A stretch of 38,044 bases of DNA from a virus. Positions 7,825 to 25,194 of this stretch are shown one piece after another. Under the pieces are notes generated by a model. The model was not told where the DNA came from. It was given only the letters and a program-made list of their open reading frames with translations, and made no database searches. The stretch's first letter is position 1; the number at the start of each line of letters is the position of its first letter. The DNA lies in IMG/VR virus record IMGVR_UViG_3300044635_002302, positions 1 to 38,044 of that record; one strand, given 5' to 3'. Position numbers and translations under genes: made by a program.

Positions 7825-8189
7825 TGAAATCATTTGCTGACTACTATCGAGAAAATCTCGTCACATCTATTCTGGAACCCATCATGATTGATGGCATTGG
7901 TGATGTAGAAGCTCGTGTGAGCAATGACAACAACAGCATGAATCAATTGCATGGTTGTGACTTAAGGGAACATGATGGGGAAGTTTCATTTGTAACTGTG
8001 TATGACAAAACACATCGTGCCACTGTTGTGGGTAGAGATGAGCATGGTCCACAAATTGCGTTGATGGTCACCACTCAACAACAACGTCCTAAAAAGATGT
8101 TCTTTACTATTGTAGACAAAACAAACGATCCCGAGAAGTGCGTTCTCGGGATCGATCACATCAAACCAATTGATGTAGAGCAGAATTAA
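7824..8189 (+). CDS. Small late protein with capsid-targeting-like N-terminus
   Basis: A 121-residue protein of unknown function beginning MKSFADYYRENLVTSILEP. This is again the MKxF pattern followed by an ILE site like those cut by the gp21 protease. The rest looks like a compact beta-rich domain (EVSFVTVYDKTHRATVVGRDEHGPQ). Its start overlaps the stop of the previous gene. The last 60 bases contain a perfect 12-bp hairpin, and the stop overlaps by 4 bases the stop of convergent folE. Confidence 0.72.
   Translation: MKSFADYYRENLVTSILEPIMIDGIGDVEARVSNDNNSMNQLHGCDLREHDGEVSFVTVYDKTHRATVVGRDEHGPQIALMVTTQQQRPKKMFFTIVDKTNDPEKCVLGIDHIKPIDVEQN
8127..8155. other. Perfect 12-bp hairpin at a convergent gene end
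   Basis: CGATCCCGAGAA, a 5-base loop GTGCG, then the exact reverse complement. It lies inside the last codons of the 7824-8189 gene, about 30 bases before the overlapping stops of that gene and folE. No T-run follows on either side, so it is not a standard intrinsic terminator; it could be a 3'-end stabiliser or processing site for either mRNA. Confidence 0.45.
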
Positions 8190-8845
8190 TTTCTGTTCTT
8201 CTGAGCAAATTCTACAAACTTGTAAAATTCTGCTCGCGAATTATCAGTGTTATCTAGGAATGCACCAGTCATTCTAGCAGTTCTCATTGTAGAGTCATGC
8301 TTGATACCACGATTAGAACAACATGTATGATTGCATTCTAACATTACAGCTACCCCATTATTATTTTCGCACACTTTATCAATGTAGTCACATATCGCAA
8401 AAGTGAGAGCTTCCTGGAGATTTGGCCTTCTTGCAAACCAATCTACAATACGGTTTAGCTTGCTCAATCCAATCACTTTGCCATGTTTGGATGGAATGTA
8501 TGCAACATGTGCATATCCAGTAAATTGCAGATTGTGATGTGAACACAATGACGTTACTTTGATGTTGTTCTGACACACCACACCATCATATCCATCTTCA
8601 TTATCAAATGCAGTGATGTTGGGTGGAGCAGAATAACATCCAGAGATGATGTCATTCACCCACGCCTTGGCTACGCGTCGAGGTGTGTTGTCGCTGTTGA
8701 CGTCAGCTCTCCAATCAAATCGAAGAGCTTCAAGAAACTTCTCGTATGCAGCAGTTGCTTCATCGATGATTTGCTCTCGTTCTTCAAGACTGCAGCAGAT
8801 GTTGCTGTTGGCACGCAACAGAATTTTATTTTCACGTTTGGACAT
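8186..8845 (-). CDS. folE: GTP cyclohydrolase I
   Basis: Converts GTP to dihydroneopterin triphosphate, the first step toward tetrahydrofolate and also toward 7-deazaguanines. All family motifs are present: CSHHNLQF (101-108) with the zinc Cys and His, GLSKLNRIVDWFARRPNLQE (126-145) and ECNHTCCSNRG (170-180). At 219 residues it is full length. With queD and queE elsewhere in the window, it most likely feeds preQ0 synthesis, though folate supply is the alternative. No minus-strand TAAATA precedes it, so it is probably expressed earlier than its late-type neighbours. Confidence 0.93.
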   Translation of the reverse strand: MSKRENKILLRANSNICCSLEEREQIIDEATAAYEKFLEALRFDWRADVNSDNTPRRVAKAWVNDIISGCYSAPPNITAFDNEDGYDGVVCQNNIKVTSLCSHHNLQFTGYAHVAYIPSKHGKVIGLSKLNRIVDWFARRPNLQEALTFAICDYIDKVCENNNGVAVMLECNHTCCSNRGIKHDSTMRTARMTGAFLDNTDNSRAEFYKFVEFAQKNRN

Positions 8846-8880: not shown

Positions 8881-9294
8881 GTGAAAAAGTTTAAATCTCT
8901 CATGGACAACGCTATCCGACAAACTCAGCTTGTGCGAGTGCGCTTGAAGGTTGATCCAGCATTGTGTGCCAATGGAGAGATCATGAAGTATCAAGGATAC
9001 GAGGGATTTGTACTTGCAGAGCATGATGGTGAAACTCGAGTGTATGTAGAGAGCTGCAATGATGTGATCATGGTACCAAGTGGCATGCTTGAACCTGTTG
9101 CCTCAACATCACCACTTGACACGCTAAAGATTGCTGCAGTTGAAACGCTACAGATGTCACCAGGTGATGCACTAGTGCCTATGATCATTGCTGCTAACTC
9201 ACCTGAGGCACTTGAAGCCTATCTCCGAGAACATGGAGTAGATGCTGAGCTCATGTTGTGCGTGTATCGCAAAGCGTACTTTGCTAGTATTTGA
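8881..9294 (+). CDS. Hypothetical late protein
   Basis: A 137-residue protein of unknown function beginning MKKFKSLMDNAIRQTQ. Residues about 20-70 look like a small beta barrel (VRVRLKVDP, GYEGFVLAEHDGETRVYVE). A helical C-terminal part follows. GTG is the only reasonable start: the ATG two bases upstream is followed at once by a stop. The MKxF beginning is shared with other late genes here, but I see no (I/L)xE site. The 3' end overlaps the convergent fibre gene by 11 bases. Confidence 0.7.
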   Translation: MKKFKSLMDNAIRQTQLVRVRLKVDPALCANGEIMKYQGYEGFVLAEHDGETRVYVESCNDVIMVPSGMLEPVASTSPLDTLKIAAVETLQMSPGDALVPMIIAANSPEALEAYLREHGVDAELMLCVYRKAYFASI

Positions 9295-10336
9295 TGATAT
9301 AGTTTAGAGCCATGTACGGCTGTATATTGTTTATCGTTGTGCTTGTTTTGCTCGTGTCATCTACAACTACGTTTTGTGTGATGAATGGATAATTTGTGGT
9401 TATATTTTCTGTGACAATACTAGTAAATCTCAATGTAAAGCTTTGCCAAGTTCTGCCTGCAGGTCCATCATCATCCACAAGTACAATTGTAGTGTAGCTG
9501 TTGCTAGGCTGCGGTACTTGATGTAAAGTTATTGCACTACGACCACTCACATTTATCAACTCTACATTTGTGGTCTGTATTATGTTGAATGGTAGCGAAC
9601 CTCCGCTAGCTCCGTATGTAACTTTATTTGTATTGCTGATGATGCTGCCTGTTTCTCTCACAAGCGTTCGCTCAATCACACTCAACTCTCTTAGCTCCTG
9701 CCAGTTTCTGTGCTGCACACTCAAGGAGTTTCCCTGAAAAACTAAAAAATCACTACCATCAACTGCAACACTAACATCTACATCTTGCACAAGATTATAT
9801 GTATATGTTGTAGTTTGTGAAGTTTTTGTTAAAGTAGGTATAGTTACATATGAAATTGGTAAAAAAGATTTTTGTATTTTGGTGTTATATTTACCACCTA
9901 CAGAGCCTACATTAACTGTGTTGGATGCGTTCCATTTGCCGTAATTAAACGTCTGATTTGTTTTAACGTCACAATACCCCATAATCACCCTGCCTTGCAA
10001 GTTGGGTAAATTGAATGAATTTTCATCAACACTTCCATACGTTTTTCCTATACTACTGTATAGTCCAGGATATGCACTTACTGCAACAGATCTACCATCG
10101 CACAACAACCAATTTCCCATGGTATCATCAACAGCGTTGCTTGCATATGGCATGATTGCACCTGCAGGATACAATGCATTTGTAAAATCTTTTACTAAAA
10201 AATCTTTTAATGCATTGATATCAGTGCGTAGTGTTCTTGGCTTGCCTGAGTAAATGCTTGTTTGTACAATAGGTAGAGCTTCAGTACCTGATAGTGGTTG
10301 TGCTACTTGTTGTTGAGATATCCTAGGATCTTCCAT
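9284..10336 (-). CDS. Tail-collar fibre protein, paralogue C
   Basis: A 350-residue fibre or adhesin with a tail-collar domain (PF07484 type) at about 57-121: PAGAIMPYA, GNWLLCDGRS and SFNLPNLQGRVIMGY. The N-terminus (DPRISQ, LSGTE) and the last 10 residues (PYMALNYIIKY) match the two upstream fibre genes. The central and C-terminal part (about 125-340) is a beta-rich region unlike the others, without low-complexity repeats. Only 3 bases separate it from paralogue B and no exact TAAATA precedes it, so it is probably co-transcribed with B. Confidence 0.82.
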   Translation of the reverse strand: MEDPRISQQQVAQPLSGTEALPIVQTSIYSGKPRTLRTDINALKDFLVKDFTNALYPAGAIMPYASNAVDDTMGNWLLCDGRSVAVSAYPGLYSSIGKTYGSVDENSFNLPNLQGRVIMGYCDVKTNQTFNYGKWNASNTVNVGSVGGKYNTKIQKSFLPISYVTIPTLTKTSQTTTYTYNLVQDVDVSVAVDGSDFLVFQGNSLSVQHRNWQELRELSVIERTLVRETGSIISNTNKVTYGASGGSLPFNIIQTTNVELINVSGRSAITLHQVPQPSNSYTTIVLVDDDGPAGRTWQSFTLRFTSIVTENITTNYPFITQNVVVDDTSKTSTTINNIQPYMALNYIIKY

Positions 10337-10339
10337 GTG

Positions 10340-11461
10340 TTAATATTTGATGATGTAGTTCATAACCACATAGGGTTGCGTCACGCTTAACGATGATGCT
10401 GCAGCAGAATTAGATGCTTGAGCAATCGATAGTGTTGTTGATCCTTGCGATCCTGGTGATCCTGGTGATCCTGGTGATCCTGGTGATCCTGGTGATCCTG
10501 GTGATCCTGGTGATCCTGGTGATCCTGGTCTCCCTGGTACATAAATTGATAATTCTAGTGATTGATAGCCCCATCCTTGATCTGTAACCTGAAACCGCAC
10601 ATCACCACTTGCATCAGGTACAACAGTTACAGATCCTCTAGCCCAAGCATTGTTTCCGGAACATCCAAGAGATTGCCACGATCCACTATTTGTAACAGCT
10701 CCACATGCTTGACGAAAACCATATGTAAGTGTGATCCATGGTGGTACATCCCCGCCATATAACCCTCGCAACCCACCACTAATAAGTGAATTTATGCTAA
10801 CTGTAACACCACCATATATGGGTGATGAATTATATATTGATCGTGACGTTGGATCAATAGGTGCAACAGGTGCAACAGGTGCAACAGGTGCAACAGGTGC
10901 AACAGGTGCAACAGGTGCAACAGGTGCAACTACCTGTGGTTTGTTCAGTAACGCGGTTGATGTTTTGAGGGTAATGTCTGCAGACTTCAACAAATGATTG
11001 AATTTTCCATCAACACTTCCAAGAGATATTTTAGATGAAGAATTCCAATCTCCACCCTTGACTCCCGATAAACTTATGGATGATGATGAACTACAATACC
11101 CCACGACAACCCTACCTTTTAAATTGGGTAGTTTGAAAGTACTGTCACTATTACAACCATAAATAGTACCAATTCGTTCAAACAACTTTTTGTATGTAGT
11201 TCTTGATACTGATTGACCATTACACAACAACCAACCGTTTGGTACATCTGTTGCAGACACTTTACATGCATATGTTCCAATGGATCCAACTGGACAAAAC
11301 ACATTTGAAATTGAATCGATAATAAACTGCTTGAATGCATTAGGATTAGTGTATACAGTCCTAACTGCTTTTGTTACATCACTTAGCTGCGCAACAGGGA
11401 TATACTCTTCACCCGACAGAGCACCAGCAGTATTAAATTGTGATATACGTGCATCGTTCAT
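10340..11461 (-). CDS. Tail-collar fibre protein, paralogue B, with VAP and collagen-like repeats
   Basis: A 373-residue fibre starting MNDARISQF. It has a tail-collar domain at about 57-122, then a Val-Ala-Pro repeat (about 178-201), a beta-rich segment, a collagen-like Gly-Ser-Pro repeat (about 315-343), and the shared C-terminus PYVVMNYIIKY. The repeats are encoded by exact 9-bp DNA units and probably form a rigid rod and a triple helix. I chose the ATG at 11461 by homology with the paralogues; the longer frame from a TTG at 11491 runs through the promoter. The TAAATA lies 12 bases upstream. Confidence 0.85.
   Translation of the reverse strand: MNDARISQFNTAGALSGEEYIPVAQLSDVTKAVRTVYTNPNAFKQFIIDSISNVFCPVGSIGTYACKVSATDVPNGWLLCNGQSVSRTTYKKLFERIGTIYGCNSDSTFKLPNLKGRVVVGYCSSSSSISLSGVKGGDWNSSSKISLGSVDGKFNHLLKSADITLKTSTALLNKPQVVAPVAPVAPVAPVAPVAPVAPVAPIDPTSRSIYNSSPIYGGVTVSINSLISGGLRGLYGGDVPPWITLTYGFRQACGAVTNSGSWQSLGCSGNNAWARGSVTVVPDASGDVRFQVTDQGWGYQSLELSIYVPGRPGSPGSPGSPGSPGSPGSPGSPGSPGSQGSTTLSIAQASNSAAASSLSVTQPYVVMNYIIKY
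10449..10529. repeat. Tandem array of nine 9-bp units (Gly-Ser-Pro codons)
   Basis: The unit gatcctggt is repeated nine times without a mismatch; a degenerate tenth copy follows at 10530. On the minus strand it encodes the collagen-like Gly-Ser-Pro triplets of fibre B. Gain or loss of units keeps the frame and changes only the rod length. Confidence 0.95.
10860..10931. repeat. Tandem array of eight 9-bp units (Val-Ala-Pro codons)
   Basis: The unit ggtgcaaca occurs seven times exactly (10860-10922), plus an eighth copy with one changed base. On the minus strand it encodes the Val-Ala-Pro stretch of fibre B. As with the Gly-Ser-Pro array, unit number can change without shifting the frame. Confidence 0.95.
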
Positions 11462-11472
11462 GGTGTTACATG

Positions 11473-11478
11473 TATTTA
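11473..11478 (-). promoter_or_regulatory. T4-type late promoter (CTAAATA), minus strand
   Basis: TAAATA 12 bases upstream of the fibre B ATG. A T4-type start would leave a 6-base leader, slightly longer than for most late genes in the window. Confidence 0.65.
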
Positions 11479-11503
11479 GTATGCATCTCAAAAAGCAATC
11501 ATA

Positions 11504-12877
11504 TCAGTACCTAATGATGTAATTCATCACCATGTAAGGTTTTGTGTTATTAAGTGGTAACGCAGATGTATTGTTTGTACCCTGTACTATTGACGATGAT
11601 GTTTGCGGAGCACTTGGAATATTTCCAAATGTAATTTGCGTTTGATTGATGGGTATTTGACTTCCAATTAATTGATGATTGAACACACCTCCTGTGCTGC
11701 CAACTGCAACAGTTGGTGCACCATCATTGGGAGTAGCCTTAAAATTTATTGCATCATTCAAGGTCAGATTATTGGGCGTCCAATTGTTGTTGTTGAGACT
11801 TGCATCATTACCAATAGTTGTAGCTGTCATTGCAGATCTGTCTGCAAAATTTAGATAAAAGCCATTGGTCCCGTATGTGCCTGTGTATGTTTTGGGTATC
11901 CACGCACCACATGCATTGGTTTGACCAAAATTACTAGCTGCTAGCGCTTGTCCATCAATAAAGTTTATTTCTGCAAGAGCTCCATCAAAAAGCTGAATAC
12001 CAGAGGTAGAATTTTTACCAATAAACACAGGTTGCGTTGAATTTACATATGTTTGAAAATTAATTGCAGGGTATGTTGCAATTGAAAATGATGTAATTTG
12101 TGCACCATCAACATAAATCTTTATCCTGTTTGTATCAAAAGTTTGAGTTGTATCGCATGCAACTACAATATGATACCATTTTGATGTATCAGTAAAAGTC
12201 TGTGTAGTTTGCAATTGATCTGTCACAACATTTCCTGCAGCATTTTGACAAGCTAATATATTAGTATTAGCGAAAGCTATAGAAACAAAATCATTTTGAG
12301 TTGATCCCCAATGAAATATACTGTCTCCAGTGCCTATAGTTCTTCTATTGATCCATCCACTCCACGTCCATATACGTCTATTTCCTGCAATTGTAGGTGT
12401 TCTGCTTAGATACGTGTTGCTACTTGACCTAAACCTCAAACCATACTGAATGTAATCATCATTATAGGAATTGAACACGCTCGAGAGATTTGTAGATGCA
12501 GTAGTATCACAATATCCCATGACAACTCTCCCCTTGAGATTTGGTAGATTGAAAGACTTGTCGTTGATGCTACCATATGTTGTTCCAATTTTGCTAAACA
12601 GCTTACTATACGTAGATCTCATAACCGATCGACCATCACACAACAACCACCCGCTAGGTGCATCAACTGAAGATACACTACCAGCATACGATATAATCAA
12701 TCCAGGTGGACAAAACAAATCAGCTGCTTCATCAAATACAAAATCTTTGAATGCATTTGCATCAGTATACAGCGTTCGCAACACATTGGTTGATGTCTGC
12801 AACTGTGTGATGGGAATGTACTCGCTACCCGAAAGAGGAGCAGCTACTTTGAGTTGCGAAATTCTTGCATCATCCAT
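11504..12877 (-). CDS. Tail-collar fibre protein, paralogue A, with LamG-like domain
   Basis: A 457-residue fibre or adhesin. The N-terminus MDDARISQ and the tail-collar domain (about 57-122; GWLLCDGRS, LPNLKGRVVMGY) match the two paralogues. A LamG/concanavalin-like jellyroll follows at about 145-330 (TWSGWINRR, WYHIVVACD, IKIYVDG, LFDGALAEINFIDG), a fold that often binds glycans. After it come GNDASLNNNNWTPNN and the shared end KPYMVMNYIIRY. The LamG domain lies between the shared ends like an exchangeable cassette. Host recognition is the likely role. Confidence 0.87.
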   Translation of the reverse strand: MDDARISQLKVAAPLSGSEYIPITQLQTSTNVLRTLYTDANAFKDFVFDEAADLFCPPGLIISYAGSVSSVDAPSGWLLCDGRSVMRSTYSKLFSKIGTTYGSINDKSFNLPNLKGRVVMGYCDTTASTNLSSVFNSYNDDYIQYGLRFRSSSNTYLSRTPTIAGNRRIWTWSGWINRRTIGTGDSIFHWGSTQNDFVSIAFANTNILACQNAAGNVVTDQLQTTQTFTDTSKWYHIVVACDTTQTFDTNRIKIYVDGAQITSFSIATYPAINFQTYVNSTQPVFIGKNSTSGIQLFDGALAEINFIDGQALAASNFGQTNACGAWIPKTYTGTYGTNGFYLNFADRSAMTATTIGNDASLNNNNWTPNNLTLNDAINFKATPNDGAPTVAVGSTGGVFNHQLIGSQIPINQTQITFGNIPSAPQTSSSIVQGTNNTSALPLNNTKPYMVMNYIIRY

Positions 12878-12913: not shown

Positions 12914-13528
12914 ATGAGTAAGTTTCAAAGTACCAAAGTCATCGAGCTAGGTAGCTGTGCATTTCGTCAATGGTGTGCTACATCTCATTGTCGCTACCTT
13001 CATGGATATCAGCTAAAAGCTAAGTTTTGGTTTGGTGCATCTAGTCTTGATGAAAAGAATTGGGTAGTTGATTTTGCAGGTCTAAAAGAACTCAAAGCAA
13101 CGTTACAACATCAGTTTGACCATACTCTGTGTATTGCAGCTAATGATCCACTACTACCACTATTCAAAGACTTGCATGATAAGGGTGGGTGTGATTTGCG
13201 TGTTATGGAAGGTGTGGGTATTGAAAAAACTGCTGAGTGGTGTGCACGTGCTGCTGATGAATTTGTTAGAAAAATTACCAACAACCGTTGCTGGGTTGAT
13301 CAAGTAGAAGTATTTGAGCATGAACTAAATTCTGCAATTTATTCAACACAACAGCAGCTTGCTATTGACGTGTCACAACCTACACCGAGCACGGAGGCTG
13401 TGGTCGCAAGTCCTGTTACCACCCCAGCAAACACACAACCTGCACCAAGCTCGTCACGACCTGCTCATGTTGGTCCCAACAACTCACCTGGCAAGGGAGA
13501 TTGGTTCAAAGGAACAAGCTGGGGATAG
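12914..13528 (+). CDS. queD: 6-carboxytetrahydropterin synthase-like protein (QueD family) with long tail
   Basis: QueD turns dihydroneopterin triphosphate into 6-carboxytetrahydropterin on the way to preQ0. The family is clear from SHCRYLHGY (24-32), NWVVDFAGLK (49-58) and FDH (68-70), with Cys26 where the catalytic Cys is expected. The usual zinc pair HGH reads HGY, and the first zinc His is not in its usual context; His25 may substitute. At 204 residues it is 60-80 longer than most QueD because of a Pro/Ser/Thr-rich tail (about 150-204) ending GDWFKGTSWG. No TAAATA precedes it. Confidence 0.8.
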   Translation: MSKFQSTKVIELGSCAFRQWCATSHCRYLHGYQLKAKFWFGASSLDEKNWVVDFAGLKELKATLQHQFDHTLCIAANDPLLPLFKDLHDKGGCDLRVMEGVGIEKTAEWCARAADEFVRKITNNRCWVDQVEVFEHELNSAIYSTQQQLAIDVSQPTPSTEAVVASPVTTPANTQPAPSSSRPAHVGPNNSPGKGDWFKGTSWG

Positions 13529-16330: not shown

Positions 16331-17068
16331 ATGAATGATACTTTATTTGTGTCTGATGACAAGGCGTTTTATACTCTTGAAGGAGAGGGTGAGTACGTTG
16401 GTCAACCATCTGTGTTTTTGAGATTATCAACCTGCAACTTGACCTGCAAAGGATTCATGAGCGAATCGTCACCTCATGGATGTGATAGCTACGTGAGCTG
16501 GTCTGTAAAAAATAGATTTACTACTGATGAGTTGATCGAGTACATGGAGAAGGGACTGTATCACAACTATCTCAAGCGTGGAGCTATTTTGAAGCTCACA
16601 GGCGGCGAACCTTTGCTGCAGCAGAAGAAGTTGATCAAGTTTTGTGAACGCGCATTTGATCATTGGGGATTTGTACCTCGTGTTGACTTTGAGACCAACG
16701 CAACCATCATGCCTCTTGATGCATGGAGAGAGAAGTTTAACGCTACTTTTACAACTTCTCCCAAGCTTGCATGCAATGGTGATCCAGAAGACAAGCGATA
16801 TAAGCCTGAGGTACTGAGAAAGCATGTAGAGCTTGGATCAGGATTTAAGTTTGTTGTGCAAACTCGAGACGATATCGTAGAAATATTTACAAAATACATT
16901 GAGCCATTTAGCATCAATCCAGATCGAGTATGGTTTATGCCCTGCTGTGGATCTCGCGATGAGCATGTTGTACGCGCACCTCAGGTAGCTGAATGGGCAA
17001 AAGAATTTGGAGTTAACTTTAGTCCACGACTACATCTACTGCTTTGGGATAAAGCTTTAAAAGTTTGA
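16331..17068 (+). CDS. queE: 7-carboxy-7-deazaguanine synthase-like radical SAM enzyme (QueE family)
   Basis: QueE converts 6-carboxytetrahydropterin to 7-carboxy-7-deazaguanine using SAM and an iron-sulfur cluster. The QueE start (YTLEGEG, 14-20) and the GGEPLLQ SAM motif (91-97) are clear. The cluster cysteines are C35, C39 and C51, a CX3CX11C spacing instead of the usual CX3CX2C, with [10 protein letters not shown] between the last two. The sequence is full length at 245 residues. It heads a three-gene unit with a Nudix hydrolase and a kinase, separated by 4 and 9 bases. Confidence 0.88.
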
Positions 17069-18245: not shown

Positions 18246-18836
18246 TTAGTACGACTTGATGACCATCACGTTGTATGATGGTTGTGCGAGGAGTTCTTCA
18301 GATGTGCTTTCTTGCGTTTGTGTGACAACTTCACCTGTAGCGGTGTTTGCTGTTAAAGTTGTTCTATAGAATGATGCAGTAATGGAAAAATAACCTCTAT
18401 TGTCGCTACTATCATCAACTGCTGAAATATAACCTGGAAATCTACCAGCTACTGCATCAGCAGGCGTCACAATGAAGTCAGTTGGTGTGATTTCTGGAAC
18501 ATCGCTTGAAGGTCTGGGCTCAAGCATTCCAGATTCAGTAGTCCCGTTGGTCACCTTCACAGTTGCTTTGCCAATATAAACCTTGGTCATGGTTTGATCA
18601 ATGTAAGCAGACATGTCTGCTAGTTGTGTGCTGATGTTTGAGCTTAAGTCTGCAACATCAGTCTCAAGAGAATACACTAGTGTTGAGATTGCAGTCTTTT
18701 CTGGTTCCAAGATGAGATCTGCATAATCAAGAATGTATGTACCATCAAGTTGCTCAACAACCAAAAAATCACCATCGGTGATCTCTAGAGTTTGAGGCAG
18801 ATCTTTAATGTTGATGGTAGCTTTCTTGATGCTCAT
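18246..18836 (-). CDS. Putative virion protein
   Basis: A 196-residue protein. Its N-terminus (INIKDLPQTLEITDGDFLVVEQLDG followed by YADLIL) matches a short module common at the start of virion and fibre-associated proteins of marine T4-like phages. A heptad-like helical stretch (about 45-85) and a beta-rich C-terminus follow. A minus-strand CTAAATA ends 7 bases before the ATG, supporting late expression as a structural or tail-associated protein. Exact role unknown. Confidence 0.7.
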   Translation of the reverse strand: MSIKKATINIKDLPQTLEITDGDFLVVEQLDGTYILDYADLILEPEKTAISTLVYSLETDVADLSSNISTQLADMSAYIDQTMTKVYIGKATVKVTNGTTESGMLEPRPSSDVPEITPTDFIVTPADAVAGRFPGYISAVDDSSDNRGYFSITASFYRTTLTANTATGEVVTQTQESTSEELLAQPSYNVMVIKSY

Positions 18837-18842
18837 TGAACA

Positions 18843-18848
18843 TATTTA
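18843..18848 (-). promoter_or_regulatory. T4-type late promoter (CTAAATA), minus strand
   Basis: TAAATA with the ATG at 18836 beginning 7 bases after the last A; it lies in the gap to divergent rmlB. Confidence 0.72.
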
Positions 18849-18868
18849 GGTTGACGATACATATTGTA

Positions 18869-19810
18869 ATGAAAATTCTAGTAACTGGGGGTTGTGGGTT
18901 CATTGGCAGTAATTTCATACACCATGTACTCAAAAAACCCGAAGTACAACACATCATCAACGTGGATCTGATGACGTATGCTGCATGCAAAGACAACGTA
19001 CCTTTTGATACGCGAGTTGAAACCGTCGAAGATGACATCAACAATACTGAGCACATGAAACATCTGATGCATAGTGGTGATGTTACGCACGTTGTTCATT
19101 TTGCAGCTGAAAGCCATGTAGACAACAGCATCACTTCCCCTGGAGCATTCATCACTAGCAACATCAACGGTACTTTTTCCATGCTTGAAGCAGCTCGAGC
19201 TACTTCAGTATCAAGATTTCATCATGTGTCTACTGATGAAGTTTATGGTAGTTTAGGTACATCAGGTAAGTTTCTAGAAACAACACCATATGATCCTAGA
19301 TCTCCATATTCAGCATCTAAAGCATCTAGTGATCACCTGGTACGAGCATTTCATCACACATACGGGATGAGCACCACCATCAGCAATTGTTCCAACAACT
19401 ATGGTCCTCGTCAACATCGAGAAAAACTTATTCCAAAAATTATCACCAACATATTGTCAGACAAGAAGGTACCAGTGTATGGTACAGGAGCAAACGTTAG
19501 AGATTGGTTGTTTGTAGATGACCATTGTGAAGCCATTTGGCAGATCATCACACAGGGCGCATCTGGTGAAACGTACAATGTTGGAGGTGATTGTGAGATG
19601 AGCAATGTAGAGATGGTACATGTGTTGTGCATGTTGCTAGGGCGCAACTTTGATGATGTTGTTGAATTTGTTGAAGATCGTAAGGGTCATGACTTTCGTT
19701 ATGCAATCGATCACACCAAACTCACACAAGAGCTGGGGTGGACACCAAGCGTGACCAACATTGGAGAAGGTCTACAAAAGACCATTGATTATTATAAATT
19801 TCAGCGATAA
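18869..19810 (+). CDS. rmlB: dTDP-glucose 4,6-dehydratase-like (RmlB family)
   Basis: A 313-residue short-chain dehydrogenase closely resembling RmlB, which makes dTDP-4-keto-6-deoxyglucose. Features: the NAD-binding GGCGFIG (7-13), FAAESHVDNSI (78-88), STDEVYG with the Asp-Glu acid pair (121-127), the catalytic YSASK (147-151) and the substrate region PRQHREKLIPK. I start at the ATG at 18869; a longer frame begins at a TTG inside the divergent promoter region. No RmlA, RmlC or RmlD is present, so the substrate presumably comes from the host. It is the first gene of the sugar cluster. Confidence 0.88.
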   Translation: MKILVTGGCGFIGSNFIHHVLKKPEVQHIINVDLMTYAACKDNVPFDTRVETVEDDINNTEHMKHLMHSGDVTHVVHFAAESHVDNSITSPGAFITSNINGTFSMLEAARATSVSRFHHVSTDEVYGSLGTSGKFLETTPYDPRSPYSASKASSDHLVRAFHHTYGMSTTISNCSNNYGPRQHREKLIPKIITNILSDKKVPVYGTGANVRDWLFVDDHCEAIWQIITQGASGETYNVGGDCEMSNVEMVHVLCMLLGRNFDDVVEFVEDRKGHDFRYAIDHTKLTQELGWTPSVTNIGEGLQKTIDYYKFQR

Positions 19811-19817
19811 TTGACAT

Positions 19818-20603
19818 ATGAGTGATAAGATAGGAGTTGGCGTTGTGACTTACAAACGTCCAGATTTTTTCAAGAAATGCTACGCATCAGTTTGTGAGGC
19901 AAATCCTGATGTTGTTGTCGTTGTAAACGATGGTACACCATACGATGATGTGCAGGTACCAAATTTAATACAACACGCAACCAACCAGGGTGTGGGTGTG
20001 AGCAAGAACGATGCATTCAAACATTTGCTCGCAGCAGGGTGTGATCATATTTTTGTGGTGGAAGATGACATCATCATCAAACACCCTGATGCATTCAAAG
20101 TGTATGTAACCGCAGCTGCAGCAAGCGGACTCAAGCACATGATGTATGGTTATCATGGACCTGCCAACAAGCGTGGTGGTAAACCTCACCCAAGATACAT
20201 TGTAGATTACGGCTCAACAAAAATTGCCTTGAATCAACATTGCGTTGGAGCAGTTTGTTATTACGCAAGAGAAGTTTTAGAAACTGTTGGACTAAACGAT
20301 GATAAATTTATCAATGCATGGGAGCATGTAGAACATTCACTAAGAATTGTGAAAGCTGGATATGTACCTGCTTACTGGTGGTGGCCTGATGTAGCCAACA
20401 GTACTGATTACATTGATGAGCTTGCATGTAGTGAGGAAAATTCTACCATTCGTCCTAGGACAGATTGGAACGACAACATAATGACAGGTGCAAAACACTT
20501 TGTGAGTAAGCATGGTGTTTCACCTGTTGCAATTCCAGACTCTTCAATTGAGAGTGTAAAAGATTCACTCAAAACTATATACAAGCAGCATGCAAAGCGT
20601 TGA
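19818..20603 (+). CDS. Glycosyltransferase, GT-A fold
   Basis: A 261-residue GT-A type transferase. The N-terminus IGVGVVTYKRPDFFKKC is typical of GT2 enzymes; NDGT lies near 37-40 and the metal-binding EDD at 82-84 (VVEDDIIIK). The acceptor is unknown: host surface glycan, virion protein or modified DNA are all possible. It is 7 bases after rmlB, and its last 14 bases overlap the next glycosyltransferase gene. Confidence 0.8.
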   Translation: MSDKIGVGVVTYKRPDFFKKCYASVCEANPDVVVVVNDGTPYDDVQVPNLIQHATNQGVGVSKNDAFKHLLAAGCDHIFVVEDDIIIKHPDAFKVYVTAAAASGLKHMMYGYHGPANKRGGKPHPRYIVDYGSTKIALNQHCVGAVCYYAREVLETVGLNDDKFINAWEHVEHSLRIVKAGYVPAYWWWPDVANSTDYIDELACSEENSTIRPRTDWNDNIMTGAKHFVSKHGVSPVAIPDSSIESVKDSLKTIYKQHAKR

Positions 20604-21273
20604 TGTTATAATTCTCTCCAACACCAAAGATCTATCTCTGTATGGACTTACTCAGCGCACCATCAACACACTAAGGCTATCTGAACAAGACTATAATTTT
20701 GACATCAAGGTTGTTGAGACTAATGCAGATATCTTGCGAGATGGATTTGTATATCAAGGGTGTAACGTCGTTGTACCTAAAGCAGAATTTAACTACAACA
20801 AGTTTCTCAACGAGGGGCTAAAACATTGTACAAATGAGTGGGTAGCATTGTGCAACAATGATTTGATCTTCACACAGCACTGGTTTAGCAACTTGATGAA
20901 ATTTCATCAACAAAATCCAGATGTTAAATCTCTTGCTCCATTTGAACCCAACTGGCATATAAAGCGTGGGATGTCTGCAGATGCAGAAGTATATTATGGT
21001 TACAGGACATCGTTTGAAATTACTGGGTGGTGTTTGATTGTGCATCGTGACGTGATCACCACTTGCAATCTATTTGATGAAAATTTTGCATTTTGGTATC
21101 AAGACAACGATTATGCTGAGACCATCAAACATCATCAGTTCAAACACGCATTGGTTTGCAACTCTAGAGTCTATCACATGGTGTCTGGATCACACCACTT
21201 GCTTGAAGAGAACAAACACCGAATGACAGATGGTCAGCGAGATGTTTTTGTCAACAAATGGAACAAGGGCTAA
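20590..21273 (+). CDS. Glycosyltransferase family 2-like protein
   Basis: A 227-residue GT2-like transferase. It has the acceptor-loop pattern FNYNKFLNEGLKHC followed by the metal-binding CNNDLIF (88-94), as in rhamnosyl-type GT2 proteins, and later GWCLIVHRDV and FAFWYQDNDYAE. The ATG lies inside the end of the previous gene, so translation is probably coupled. Substrate unknown; the neighbouring RmlB suggests a deoxysugar. Confidence 0.78.
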   Translation: MQSVDVIILSNTKDLSLYGLTQRTINTLRLSEQDYNFDIKVVETNADILRDGFVYQGCNVVVPKAEFNYNKFLNEGLKHCTNEWVALCNNDLIFTQHWFSNLMKFHQQNPDVKSLAPFEPNWHIKRGMSADAEVYYGYRTSFEITGWCLIVHRDVITTCNLFDENFAFWYQDNDYAETIKHHQFKHALVCNSRVYHMVSGSHHLLEENKHRMTDGQRDVFVNKWNKG

Positions 21274-21276
21274 AAA

Positions 21277-21951
21277 ATGGACATCAAATTCTGCATAACA
21301 TCTAACGTTAGTTTCTCGCAACACACATACCCTGTAATAGTACCCTCGTTGACTGCTTGTGGTGTAGATGCACCAAACATTTATTTCATCGAAGGTGGTC
21401 ACACTGATAGGATTACATGCACACAGGGTGGTGTTAATTACATCAAAACAGGTCATAACTCTGTTGAATATACTAGCTTGATTGATATTGTTGAGCACAA
21501 CATGCAAGCTGATTACTGGGTGCTGTTGCATGATACATGCAGAGTGGGAAAAGATTTTTTTGTACTAGTGCAAAACATTCCCGATGGTTGTGAAAAAGCT
21601 GCACTCAAACACTGGCCGTCCATGTCCATTGGAGCATACAAATACAGCTACCTTAAAAAGCATACGGATCGTTTGATGCAAATCAAAAACACTGACTACA
21701 GCAGAGATCGAGTGCAACATTGGAAGCAATGGGGTATTCACAACGAAGATTACATGCTGTGGAGAGAATCTAGCTCACCTTGTGCACTATACAATCCGCA
21801 TTTAGAACTAAGAGAGAAGTTTGTTGTGTGTGAAGAGGCAGCGTGGTACAACACCAACACAACGCGTCGTGTGGAGTATTACGCTCAGCTTGATCTTTAC
21901 AAAAGCAAAGCTAATTGGCATCCCAAACCTTGGATGGAGATTGATGTATGA
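21277..21951 (+). CDS. Possible glycosyltransferase-like protein
   Basis: A 224-residue protein without a clear signature. The segment ADYWVLLHDTCRVGKDFF resembles the donor-binding strand and aspartate of GT-A enzymes, and later WGIHNEDYMLW could carry a catalytic acid. It has many Trp and Tyr residues, suited to sugar binding, and no membrane segment. It lies 3 bases after one glycosyltransferase, and its stop overlaps the next start (ATGA), so it clearly belongs to the sugar cluster. Confidence 0.6.
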   Translation: MDIKFCITSNVSFSQHTYPVIVPSLTACGVDAPNIYFIEGGHTDRITCTQGGVNYIKTGHNSVEYTSLIDIVEHNMQADYWVLLHDTCRVGKDFFVLVQNIPDGCEKAALKHWPSMSIGAYKYSYLKKHTDRLMQIKNTDYSRDRVQHWKQWGIHNEDYMLWRESSSPCALYNPHLELREKFVVCEEAAWYNTNTTRRVEYYAQLDLYKSKANWHPKPWMEIDV

Positions 21952-22919
21952 AGATTGCGATTGTTGGAGCAGGGTGGGTAGGTTGTCATTTGGCTAGTGT
22001 GTTGAGACAGACGCACGATGTGACTTTATTTGCTCCAACAGGTGAAGTGTTTGATGGCACATCTATGCACAATCAGAATCGATTGCATCTTGGTTATCAT
22101 TACGCACGTAGCTACAAAACACGCGAGTTGTGTAAAGATACGTTTCAAGAGTTTTTGCATGCATATGGTCACCTAACACAGCCCATCAACAACAACTTGT
22201 ATGCAGTTCCTGTCAATGAATCGTTGATGGACTTTGCAACATACTTGAAGATTTTTGATGATATGCATCATCAAGTAGTAGATGAGCCTACTTTGGAAAA
22301 CATAGAAGGATGCATTCAAGTTGACGAGAGATACATTGATCCTGCTGCAAGCAAGAACTACTTTCAGCAGCAGCTCGAATCATTGATTGTTGACGCATCG
22401 ATGTCGTGTAAAGATCTACAACACACAGCAACCACACACGATGCAGTTATAAATTGCACCAACAATTTTTTACAGCCTGATACCAACAATACGTTCTGGG
22501 AACAATGTGTGATGTTGATATATGCAAAAAAACAACCGTGCAATTTTGGAGCTCTCACGTTAGTTGATGGTCCTTTGTTTTCAATCTACCCATACCTAAA
22601 CGGTACCATTACTTTGAGTCATGTGTTGCACACTCCTGTATACAAAAGCAGCACCCCTGATGCAACGTTCTCAATGGATGTTGAACAACAACGACGCCTC
22701 ATGGAACAAGATGTGTTGAAATATTTTCCCAGCTTTCATGATTGCTTTGAACATCAAGGTCATTTCACCAGCACCAAGATCAAGCGCAACATCAAATGCG
22801 ATGATCGTTCGCCTGTGATGCGAGTTGATAACAACATCATCAGCTGTTATACTGGTAAGATACAAGGAATTTTTCACATACAAAAATTTGTTGAACATGA
22901 ATTATCTCATTGGAAATAG
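21948..22919 (+). CDS. FAD-dependent oxidoreductase (DAO-like) of a sugar cluster
   Basis: A 323-residue Rossmann flavoprotein. The N-terminus IAIVGAGWVGCHLASVL is a GxGxxG dinucleotide-binding motif, followed by TSMHNQNRLHLGYHYARS, a conserved stretch in DAO-like oxidoreductases of surface-sugar gene clusters. The C-terminus ends in a typical flavoprotein strand (NIISCYTGKIQGIF). It may oxidise an amine or hydroxyl of a nucleotide sugar; the substrate cannot be assigned. Its end overlaps the next gene by 23 bases. Confidence 0.72.
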   Translation: MKIAIVGAGWVGCHLASVLRQTHDVTLFAPTGEVFDGTSMHNQNRLHLGYHYARSYKTRELCKDTFQEFLHAYGHLTQPINNNLYAVPVNESLMDFATYLKIFDDMHHQVVDEPTLENIEGCIQVDERYIDPAASKNYFQQQLESLIVDASMSCKDLQHTATTHDAVINCTNNFLQPDTNNTFWEQCVMLIYAKKQPCNFGALTLVDGPLFSIYPYLNGTITLSHVLHTPVYKSSTPDATFSMDVEQQRRLMEQDVLKYFPSFHDCFEHQGHFTSTKIKRNIKCDDRSPVMRVDNNIISCYTGKIQGIFHIQKFVEHELSHWK

Positions 22920-23670
22920 CGGTCTAGTTGGTAAAAATTTGCTCAAACATCAACAATTTGATGCAACATTCAACAGCTCCAACATCAACAACTTACCATC
23001 AGTGTTTGTTGAGGGTGGTGATGTGATACTATCTTGCTTACCTGCCACCAAGTGGCAGATCAATCAAAACAAACTCAAAGACCTGCAAAACATTCACAGC
23101 ATCATCAACACACTTGCACCTTGTGCATTTAACAACATTGTGCTGATATCAACCATTGACGTCTATCTTGATTCACCCTTGGGTGTTGATGAATCGCATG
23201 ACCCAACAATCAACACACTACACTATGGATCACACAGATTGTTGTTTGAGAAGATGGTTAGAGATTTGCTAAATTACAAATCGTTACACGTGTTTAGGCT
23301 ACCAGCATTGTTTGGAGATCATCTCAAAAAGAACGTGCTGTTTGATCTACTGCACAACAACAATGTTGACAAAATCAATCTCAACACATACTATCAATGG
23401 TATGATCTTGGCAGATTGCATGATGACATCAAGCACATCACCACCAATCACAGCAGCGGTATATTCAATTTGTTCACACAACCTGTCTACACTGCTGATG
23501 TTGTTGATGCATTCTTCCCATCTGCAGATGTTGGGTATGTGGGTAATTTGGTGCAGTATGATTGGAAAACACAACATCTTGCATCTGGATACATTCTAGA
23601 TGCATCACAGGTGATGCAAGATATTGAAAAATTCATATATGAAGCTCGCAATAAGCAATCTAGCTTGTGA
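22897..23670 (+). CDS. NAD-dependent epimerase/reductase-like protein (SDR)
   Basis: A 257-residue extended SDR-like protein. The start MNYLIGNSGLVGKNLLK holds the GxxGxxG nucleotide-binding turn; LISTIDVYLDSPLGVDE and HYGSHRLLFE follow. The catalytic YxxxK reads YGSHR, with Arg instead of Lys; related proteins of surface-sugar clusters seem to share this. I chose the ATG at 22897, inside the end of the flavoprotein gene, because the motif begins there; upstream residues are a shadow of that gene. Likely acts on the same sugar as its neighbours. Confidence 0.72.
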   Translation: MNYLIGNSGLVGKNLLKHQQFDATFNSSNINNLPSVFVEGGDVILSCLPATKWQINQNKLKDLQNIHSIINTLAPCAFNNIVLISTIDVYLDSPLGVDESHDPTINTLHYGSHRLLFEKMVRDLLNYKSLHVFRLPALFGDHLKKNVLFDLLHNNNVDKINLNTYYQWYDLGRLHDDIKHITTNHSSGIFNLFTQPVYTADVVDAFFPSADVGYVGNLVQYDWKTQHLASGYILDASQVMQDIEKFIYEARNKQSSL

Positions 23671-24358
23671 TGATGTCTCGCAAATCACACCAACAGGTGT
23701 ATCGTTGTTGGAGTGTGTGTTCTCAAAAACACAACCCATCATGGAGCAAGATGCATCAAGCATTGCTGCATGGCACAAGCAATTGCCTGCAACACTAACT
23801 CCCTACTCAGCACAATCCATAACATATGGTTGTGGATTGACTGACTTCTCTGCATGCGCAGCTAACTTTGTGGTGATGGACAAGATCATCGAACTTGCTG
23901 CATCGCTGCAACTCAAGCGATTGGTGTTTGGATCTCCAGGTATACGCAAAGGACGTCCTGATGCATCAATGTTCAAATATATAGATGAACAATTGAAGGG
24001 CGGTGACACGGTGTTCTGCATTGAACCCAATGCACATGTGTATGGTGGTGAGTATTTCTTTGATGTTGCAGAGATTGCTGAGTTCTTACAACAACACAAA
24101 TTCAACAACATTAGTACCATGATTGATACACACAATTCATGGTTGGAGAATCGTCGCACAGTAGATGATGTATACATGTTCCAAGACGTAATCAAGCACG
24201 TGCATGCATCAGAGGTCAAGCTTGATGGCTTCATCAGTTTAAATGATCATGCCATGGTAGCAGAAGCTCTTGTCAACATCAATTATCAGCACGTTGTGAC
24301 TTTCGAATCACTCACAATGCACGGGGTAGATGATTTTATAAAAACATACGGTAAATAA
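23639..24358 (+). CDS. Sugar-phosphate isomerase/epimerase-like TIM barrel
   Basis: A 239-residue protein of the xylose-isomerase-like TIM-barrel superfamily: LAISNLACD at the first strand, ITYGCGLTDFS, LKRLVFGSPGIRKG, FCIEPNAHVYGG with the metal-type Glu, STMIDTHN and VTFESLTM in strand order. It probably isomerises or epimerises a sugar intermediate. I start at the ATG at 23639; the longer frame begins at a TTG. It overlaps the SDR gene by 32 bases and closes the sugar cluster. Confidence 0.72.
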   Translation: MKLAISNLACDDVSQITPTGVSLLECVFSKTQPIMEQDASSIAAWHKQLPATLTPYSAQSITYGCGLTDFSACAANFVVMDKIIELAASLQLKRLVFGSPGIRKGRPDASMFKYIDEQLKGGDTVFCIEPNAHVYGGEYFFDVAEIAEFLQQHKFNNISTMIDTHNSWLENRRTVDDVYMFQDVIKHVHASEVKLDGFISLNDHAMVAEALVNINYQHVVTFESLTMHGVDDFIKTYGK

Positions 24359-24606: not shown

Positions 24607-25194
24607 ATGGTACTCACAACTAATACTACGTATAATGGCGATCTCATTCACAAGCGCTTTGCATATCAATTTCTTCGCGACAAGGTAAGTCCAATTGGTG
24701 ATATTGTTTGTTTTCGTGGTGGTATGAACGTCACCACCAATCTGATCGATCAAGAAGATCTCATCAACAAAGATTACATCTACAGTGGCGATGCGATGAA
24801 CTTCATTTGGGAAATACCCAACCTGTGTCCATTTGGAGCAGTAGCATTTCAGCGATTGTTCAACACGCAAATTGCAAATTTGTTGTCGGTCAAATATCTG
24901 CAGAAGCCCATCGAAGTTGATGGTGATGATTTGTTGGTGCATGATCATTTTGTTGGTAGTGATGGAAAAGATTACGAGAAAGGTAAAGCATCTGTAAGCA
25001 TTACATATTCTACCAACAATGTAGCAATTGGTCATACTGGTATCAACATCGATGCAGGTAAAGGTGCACCTGGATTTGCATACTCAACCAAGCTGAGTGA
25101 TGAGCAGGTTGAAGGCTTCATGAATGACGTAAATCAGATGTTTTATTTCATGTGCATGGATGCATTTGTCGCAACTACAAAAGTGATTGTGTGA
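24607..25194 (+). CDS. Conserved T4-like phage protein
   Basis: A 195-residue protein. The segments DLIHKRFAYQFLRD, VCFRGGMNVT, FGAVAFQRLFNTQIA, DGDDLLVHDHF and GHTGINIDAGKGAPGFAYST match a conserved hypothetical protein of marine T4-like phages as I remember it. It looks like a compact enzyme or nucleic-acid-binding domain, but no catalytic motif is certain. The next gene starts within its stop (TGATG), which links it to the replication genes. Function unknown. Confidence 0.75.
   Translation: MVLTTNTTYNGDLIHKRFAYQFLRDKVSPIGDIVCFRGGMNVTTNLIDQEDLINKDYIYSGDAMNFIWEIPNLCPFGAVAFQRLFNTQIANLLSVKYLQKPIEVDGDDLLVHDHFVGSDGKDYEKGKASVSITYSTNNVAIGHTGINIDAGKGAPGFAYSTKLSDEQVEGFMNDVNQMFYFMCMDAFVATTKVIV

Follow-up and report, generated by a model that had tools for sequence, protein, structure and literature searches.

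Gene content of the window and of the sugar cluster

The window, meaning the whole stretch of DNA analyzed, is a 38,044-base virus record and represents a 38-kb fragment of a T4-like phage. This assignment, already made in the preliminary description, was borne out by a gp23 major capsid gene (PF07068, 309 bits), a T4-type gp20 portal gene (PHROG 213), and PhoH, all found in the window. The portal protein shares only about 30% identity with those of cultured phages, with cyanophages among the best matches. The seven-gene sugar cluster described earlier was recovered as seven open frames on the plus strand at 18869 to 24358. The packing is as tight as had been claimed (gaps of at most 8 bases), with junctions, in gene order, consisting of a gap of 7, an overlap of 14, a gap of 3, and overlaps of 4, 23, and 32 bases; gaps thus measure 7 bases at most and overlaps up to 32. 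The genes and their borders are as follows.

18246 to 18836, minus strand: divergent border gene; the same gene lies on the opposite strand beside the island in the related phage loci L079, L081, and L100
18869 to 19810, plus strand: P1, RmlB-type dTDP-glucose 4,6-dehydratase (TIGR01181, alignment with solved RmlB)
19818 to 20603, plus strand: P2, GT2-type glycosyltransferase (PHROG 2456), syntenic in L079, L081, and L100
20590 to 21273, plus strand: P3, GT2 glycosyltransferase (PF00535), syntenic in L079, L081, and L100
21277 to 21951, plus strand: P4 ("GTL"), virus-type glycosyltransferase with a predicted GT-A fold (AlphaFold model, Foldseek)
21948 to 22919, plus strand: P5, FAD-dependent oxidoreductase of the DAO superfamily (PF01266, model fold)
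22897 to 23670, plus strand: P6, extended SDR with YxxxR (family alignment A7; relatives match PF01370)
23639 to 24358, plus strand: P7, xylose-isomerase-like TIM barrel (PF01261, putative metal ligands)
24607 to 25194, plus strand: DUF366 protein (PF04017, 69.6 bits), downstream flank of the island

In L081, L100, and L119 the DUF366 gene likewise follows the sugar island directly, irrespective of its cargo. Elsewhere in the window, three tail-collar-like paralogs occupy 9284 to 12877 on the minus strand, the middle one carrying VAP and collagen-like GSPG repeats, and four such paralogs are present at the matching position in L081. The idea that the border gene at 18246 to 18836 is another of these paralogs, and hence a glycosylation target, found no support, as no HMMER match was obtained.

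RmlB and the glycosyltransferases

P1 scored 420 bits against the TIGR01181 equivalog (cut-off, 365) and aligned with solved RmlB proteins (E 4.6e-92), with the TDE (STDEVYGSLG) and YSASK motifs present; the equivalog score and the catalytic TDE and YxxxK motifs together predict an RmlB. It shares 62% identity with its L081 relative and about 50% with RmlB of cultured phages. P3 exceeded the PF00535 cut-off (30.5 bits versus 23.3), and P2 matched the glycosyltransferase family PHROG 2456 (E 1.8e-28), its PF00535 score of 19 bits lying below the cut-off. No Pfam or PHROG match was obtained for P4. The AlphaFold model of this protein (pLDDT 93) had glycosyltransferases as its best Foldseek matches (E 2.4e-4), with a VIA Z of 11.8 and an rmsd of 3.1 over 155, in a list that also includes non-transferase nucleotidyl enzymes. 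P4 is predicted from its model to adopt a GT-A fold, which on its own is no proof of activity. An HDT triplet (H85-D86-T87) is invariant in the P4 family at the likely DxD position, and no canonical DxD is present. Relatives of P4 were identified by an IMG/VR alignment scan in 30 viral loci and gave no matches in 398 Pseudomonadota genomes, so that within the sensitivity of that search the protein looks viral. The earlier naming of an RmlB, two glycosyltransferases, and a glycosyltransferase-like protein could therefore be retained, with P2 sub-threshold in Pfam and P4 standing as a predicted GT-A fold. None of the seven proteins contains a membrane segment, judged as a 19-residue stretch over KD 1.6.

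The FAD, SDR, and TIM-barrel enzymes

The last three genes of the cluster are referred to below as the trio. P5 scored 40.4 bits against PF01266 (DAO; cut-off, 27.9), and its model (pLDDT 94; Foldseek E 1.9e-14) had as nearest folds the glycerol-3-phosphate dehydrogenase GlpD of E. coli (VIA Z 25.9, rmsd 3.0 over 310) and glycine oxidase; by family score and fold it belongs to the DAO superfamily of FAD oxidoreductases. GlpD, the fold counterpart of P5, is an alcohol-oxidizing flavoenzyme. P5 was also considered as a UDP-galactopyranose mutase. PF03275 was absent from its Pfam matches to E 0.1 (the mutase gene of L100 gave 1.4e-54), and no mutase chain occurred among the structural matches listed; this identity may nonetheless hold.

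P6 alone had no Pfam match, and Pfam Epimerase (PF01370) was matched by 8 of the 16 members of its family. In alignment A7 the glycines of the nucleotide-binding GxxGxxG motif (G6, G9, and G12) are invariant. The protein carries YGSHR, and because Y110 and R114 are invariant in all 16 aligned relatives, YxxxR is a family trait; the classical YxxxK pair is absent from the alignment, with Arg replacing Lys throughout. Given Arg at the position of the classical catalytic Lys, P6 may not be an ordinary reductase. P7 exceeded the PF01261 cut-off (33.4 bits versus 31.1), and its best NCBIfam match was a keto-gluconate epimerase (E 6.7e-6). Four residues that we take from general knowledge to be metal ligands, E129, D163, H189, and E223, are invariant in 19 sequences (alignment A8), and the Pfam score and this Glu-Asp-His-Glu site together predict a xylose-isomerase-like TIM barrel. 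The three family assignments first proposed, including the SDR with YxxxR, were confirmed. P4 to P7 are under purifying selection, with dN/dS values of 0.02 to 0.32 between near pairs.

Transcription of the cluster

The motif CTAAATA occurs at 10 sites in the window against 3.3 expected, an approximately threefold enrichment that 0 of 100 shuffles reached. These sites, which include 5260, 12891, 16285, 18843, 28369, and 31393, often lie shortly before genes. From general knowledge of T4-like phages we take the motif to be a late promoter, and it is probably that of this phage. The window motif scan found no CTAAATA inside the seven-gene cluster; the nearest, just upstream at 18843 to 18849, is on the minus strand and would serve the opposite gene (18246 to 18836), in agreement with the original observation that the cluster has no late promoter. 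Expression of the cluster is thus probably not late. As sigma-70-like sites were at chance level in the promoter scan (25 versus 24.5), no transcription start can be named. Since the opposite gene leaves about 30 bases before RmlB, the cluster is probably transcribed from plus-strand genes upstream.

Distribution of the trio

IMG/VR alignment scans returned 312 stretches with P5 relatives and 222 with P6 relatives, and the best 80 of each were fetched. Single-protein IMG/VR scans with P5, P6, and P7 were empty owing to the patterns used, which is no sign of rarity, as alignment queries found 222 to 312 relatives. The viral FAD loci analyzed are the 78 nearest of the 312, gathered by FAD alignment independently of P4, with neighbors counted on six-frame ORFs; figures for distant relatives may differ. 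Both the SDR and the TIM-barrel gene were present in every one of the 69 loci among these 78 that had at least 2 kb downstream, and the FAD-SDR-TIM trio is inseparable in IMG/VR. P4 was directly upstream of the trio in 47 of 76 loci (among the same 78 nearest of 312), and elsewhere other genes, several of them glycosyltransferase-like, took its place. The glycosyltransferase is therefore the exchangeable part, and with 29 of 76 loci without P4 directly upstream, its link to the trio is looser than the trio itself. In the set of 30 P4 loci, the FAD enzyme adjoins P4 in 19, and a UDP-galactopyranose mutase lies next to P4 or one gene away in 5. Within the stretch covered, no locus had both near P4. 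This pattern, mutase or FAD enzyme but never both, suggests that P4 depends on a neighboring donor-making flavoenzyme.

The phages carrying the trio or P4 include T4-like phages (the window, L079, L081, L100, and L119), a phage with a PF06381 portal (L092), and records of 176 to 318 kb, and their sugar islands hold GT2, GT4, GT47-like, methyltransferase, and GDP-mannose dehydratase genes. In the similar islands of large phages, such as that at L171 (8791 to 10926), GT47 exostosin-like genes lie inside the trio, between the SDR and the TIM barrel. When 50 FAD proteins were compared in a careful tree, a long branch led to a single clade (100/100) of the 18 viral sequences, and a quick-method tree of 62 viral and 19 bacterial rows again put the viral sequences on one side; the viral rows of both are those nearest to the window, and more distant viral relatives could break the clade. 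The trio has no PHROG family. A search of 50,697 phage records with P4, P5, P7, and P5/P6 relatives returned one distant fecal contig only. This record, MT839812.1 (a human fecal phage contig of 4 kb), is the sole one in the phage collection that pairs distant FAD and SDR relatives. A literature search by the combination of enzyme names, confined to open-licence papers, found no match for the trio.

Among bacteria, tblastn of P5 against plasmids identified Rhodobacterales and rhizobial FAD proteins encoded next to an SDR and a TIM barrel; in the Rhodobacterales loci, GtrA and GT2 genes are also nearby. The bacterial FAD, SDR, and TIM-barrel proteins share 22 to 32% identity with P5, P6, and P7. 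A scan of 84,980 species genomes yielded 70 FAD relatives, the bacterial P5 orthologs having 31 to 36% identity. Within bacterial FAD loci with flanks of at least 3 kb, the SDR and TIM barrel were nearby in 30 of 44. FAD relatives (E 1e-10) were present in 10 of 398 genomes drawn from Pseudomonadota, and within this search sensitivity the bacterial form of the trio is uncommon. Polysaccharide loci that contain it include those of Ruegeria, Sagittula, Rhizobium, and Alteromonas, where GtrA, GT2, or Rml genes are close by. A nearby RmlB was missing from nearly all of the viral trio loci and from most of the bacterial ones.

Varying cargo of the island in related phages

In the window, L079/L080, L081, and L100, the island is bordered by a kinase gene and the opposite-strand gene and, where the contig reaches, by the DUF366 gene. 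Between these borders the cargo varies. The window and L081 carry RmlB, P2, P3, P4, and the trio, and L079/L080 carries RmlB, P2, an extra glycosyltransferase gene, P3, P4, and the start of the FAD gene, where the contig ends. The L100 island consists of P2, an extra glycosyltransferase gene, P3, P4, a methyltransferase gene, and a UDP-galactopyranose mutase gene, without RmlB and without the trio. In L119, closely related to L081, the island includes P3, methyltransferase-like genes, P4, and the trio, and the covered part of the contig lacks RmlB. We judge it somewhat probable that the cluster is an exchangeable glycosylation island of two modules.

Proposed function and alternatives

The explanation that we favor, with confidence a little above even, assigns RmlB and the two GT2-type glycosyltransferases to one module and P4 with the trio to a second, which would remake a host nucleotide sugar whose product P4 would transfer. 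In the first module RmlB, by its family, would form dTDP-4-keto-6-deoxyglucose, with the two GT2-type transferases alongside. The trio would draw on a nucleotide sugar, or a sugar phosphate, that the host already contains. Oxidation of a ring hydroxyl by the FAD enzyme would create a ketone, next to which the metal-dependent TIM barrel would epimerize or isomerize the sugar; reduction by the SDR would then give a rare sugar for which P4 would be the transferase. This order of oxidation, epimerization, and reduction follows from fold and family logic, the trio having no characterized close relative here. A ready-made host nucleotide sugar is proposed as substrate because the transferases vary and no nucleotidyltransferase or other sugar enzyme regularly adjoins the trio; the replacement of the trio beside P4 by a UDP-galactopyranose mutase hints weakly at a UDP-hexose. 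The earlier caution that the product is uncertain and may be new is supported. More tentatively, and with rather less than even confidence, the trio may be a previously undescribed way of making a rare sugar donor, forming its own phage lineage and passed between unrelated phage types with its transferase swapped.

The preliminary description held that the seven genes could make and attach an unusual deoxysugar. Its view of a phage cluster for sugar synthesis and transfer stands, but a single pathway fed by RmlB is not supported, as the trio occurs mostly without RmlB and the L100 island lacks both. Such a linear pathway, in which the trio would remodel the dTDP-4-keto-6-deoxyglucose from RmlB to an unusual deoxysugar attached by the three glycosyltransferases, would account for the close packing of the seven genes in the window and L081, and the trio does adjoin a dTDP-rhamnose operon in a few bacteria, for example Alteromonas (L017) and Rhizobium (L018). 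However, a strong RmlB match accompanied the FAD gene in only 3 of the 44 bacterial loci with flanks of at least 3 kb, RmlB was confined to T4-like phages among the first 20 viral FAD loci, and L119, near L081, has the trio and no RmlB in the part of the contig covered; we therefore regard one pathway as unlikely. It is still less probable that the trio has as its product a small molecule such as a free cyclitol or sugar acid, by inositol-like chemistry, and supplies no donor to the adjoining glycosyltransferases: the TIM-barrel and FAD families do include keto-sugar epimerases and small-molecule oxidases, but the trio sits in glycosyltransferase-rich loci in phages and bacteria alike.

The soluble transferases fit virion proteins, inner-membrane lipid-linked or core glycans, or DNA as acceptors. 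Virion proteins and the host surface would be about equally the likeliest targets, with DNA less likely. The window carries three further genes that bear on DNA:

8186 to 8845, minus strand: FolE (PF01227)
12914 to 13528, plus strand: QueD-like PTPS protein (PF01242)
16331 to 17068, plus strand: QueE-like 4Fe-4S protein

These form part of a 7-deazaguanine (preQ0) pathway, and guanine in the phage DNA may therefore be modified. QueC was not found in the 38-kb window and is present in G002, the record of L100, at 76797 to 77426. Such genes would suit a glycosylated phage genome, with the sugar perhaps attached to a 7-deazaguanine base to guard against restriction, but no known DNA glucosyltransferase family appeared among the matches of the seven proteins and bacterial polysaccharide loci contain the trio as well, making this the most improbable of the readings considered. 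Bradyrhizose was also considered as the product and rejected; the published description of its locus, an eleven-gene cluster, mentions a dTDP-glucose dehydratase but nowhere names such a trio.

Relation to known systems

Sugar islands with RmlB or UDP-galactopyranose mutase have been described in Synechococcus, Aeromonas, and Agrobacterium phages (PMC6630229). The window resembles them in its phage-borne sugar-nucleotide enzymes accompanied by glycosyltransferases and differs in a P4-FAD-SDR-TIM module without a PHROG family. Phage sugar islands are thus already known; what is new is a widespread, uncharacterized phage-borne trio with a virus-type transferase. Phage sugar genes are usually filed singly as auxiliary metabolic genes. 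Here three enzymes have stayed linked, frequently alongside a virus-type transferase, in T4-like phages, in phages whose portal is of the PF06381 type, and in very large phages, although genomes of cultured phages hardly contain them. Should the trio yield a single defined donor, three purified proteins would reveal a sugar in which many environmental phages invest genes, and if it is indeed a route of its own phage lineage, this sugar and the part it plays in phage-host conflict would both be new. The swap of trio and UDP-galactopyranose mutase at one locus offers a natural comparison for the purpose of phage glycosylation.

The SDR-TIM-(GT)-FAD-GtrA-GT2 operons of Rhodobacterales and similar bacteria (L005 and L008) likewise hold homologous FAD, SDR, and TIM-barrel genes close together in polysaccharide loci, but their partners are GtrA and GT2 and their SDR is about 60 residues longer in this group. 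In inositol metabolism, a dehydrogenase, an IolI-type TIM-barrel isomerase, and a dehydrogenase interconvert inositols via oxidation, epimerization, and reduction. The proposed route has the same three chemistries with a metal-dependent TIM barrel in the middle, but differs in an FAD rather than NAD oxidase, an atypical SDR, and glycosyltransferase neighbors. Unlike a gtr serotype-conversion cluster, the seven proteins include no GtrA flippase or membrane-bound transferase.

Of the dTDP-L-rhamnose pathway (RmlABCD), the 38-kb window contains RmlB; RmlA and RmlC were looked for through PF00483 and PF00908, neither of which was matched. The earlier statement that no complete dTDP-rhamnose pathway is present is thus true of the window, but the argument built on it fails: missing Rml genes are uninformative, since the window is just a 38-kb piece, and in a 184-kb relative the Rml-like genes lie far from the island. 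In that relative (G002, 184.5 kb), an RmlA-like nucleotidyltransferase, a second RmlB-type dehydratase, and an RmlD-like SDR lie at 143.9 to 148.4 kb, possibly a shortened rhamnose route in a T4-like phage. The record of L081 has a nucleotidyltransferase with an odd C terminus near the contig end (L109, 4360 to 5166), which may reflect assembly trouble. In the RmlA-like/RmlB-like/RmlD-like set (L110, 4898 to 9447), the RmlD-like SDR carries GKPNVDSCE and recalls the epimerase-reductase of plants and giant viruses.
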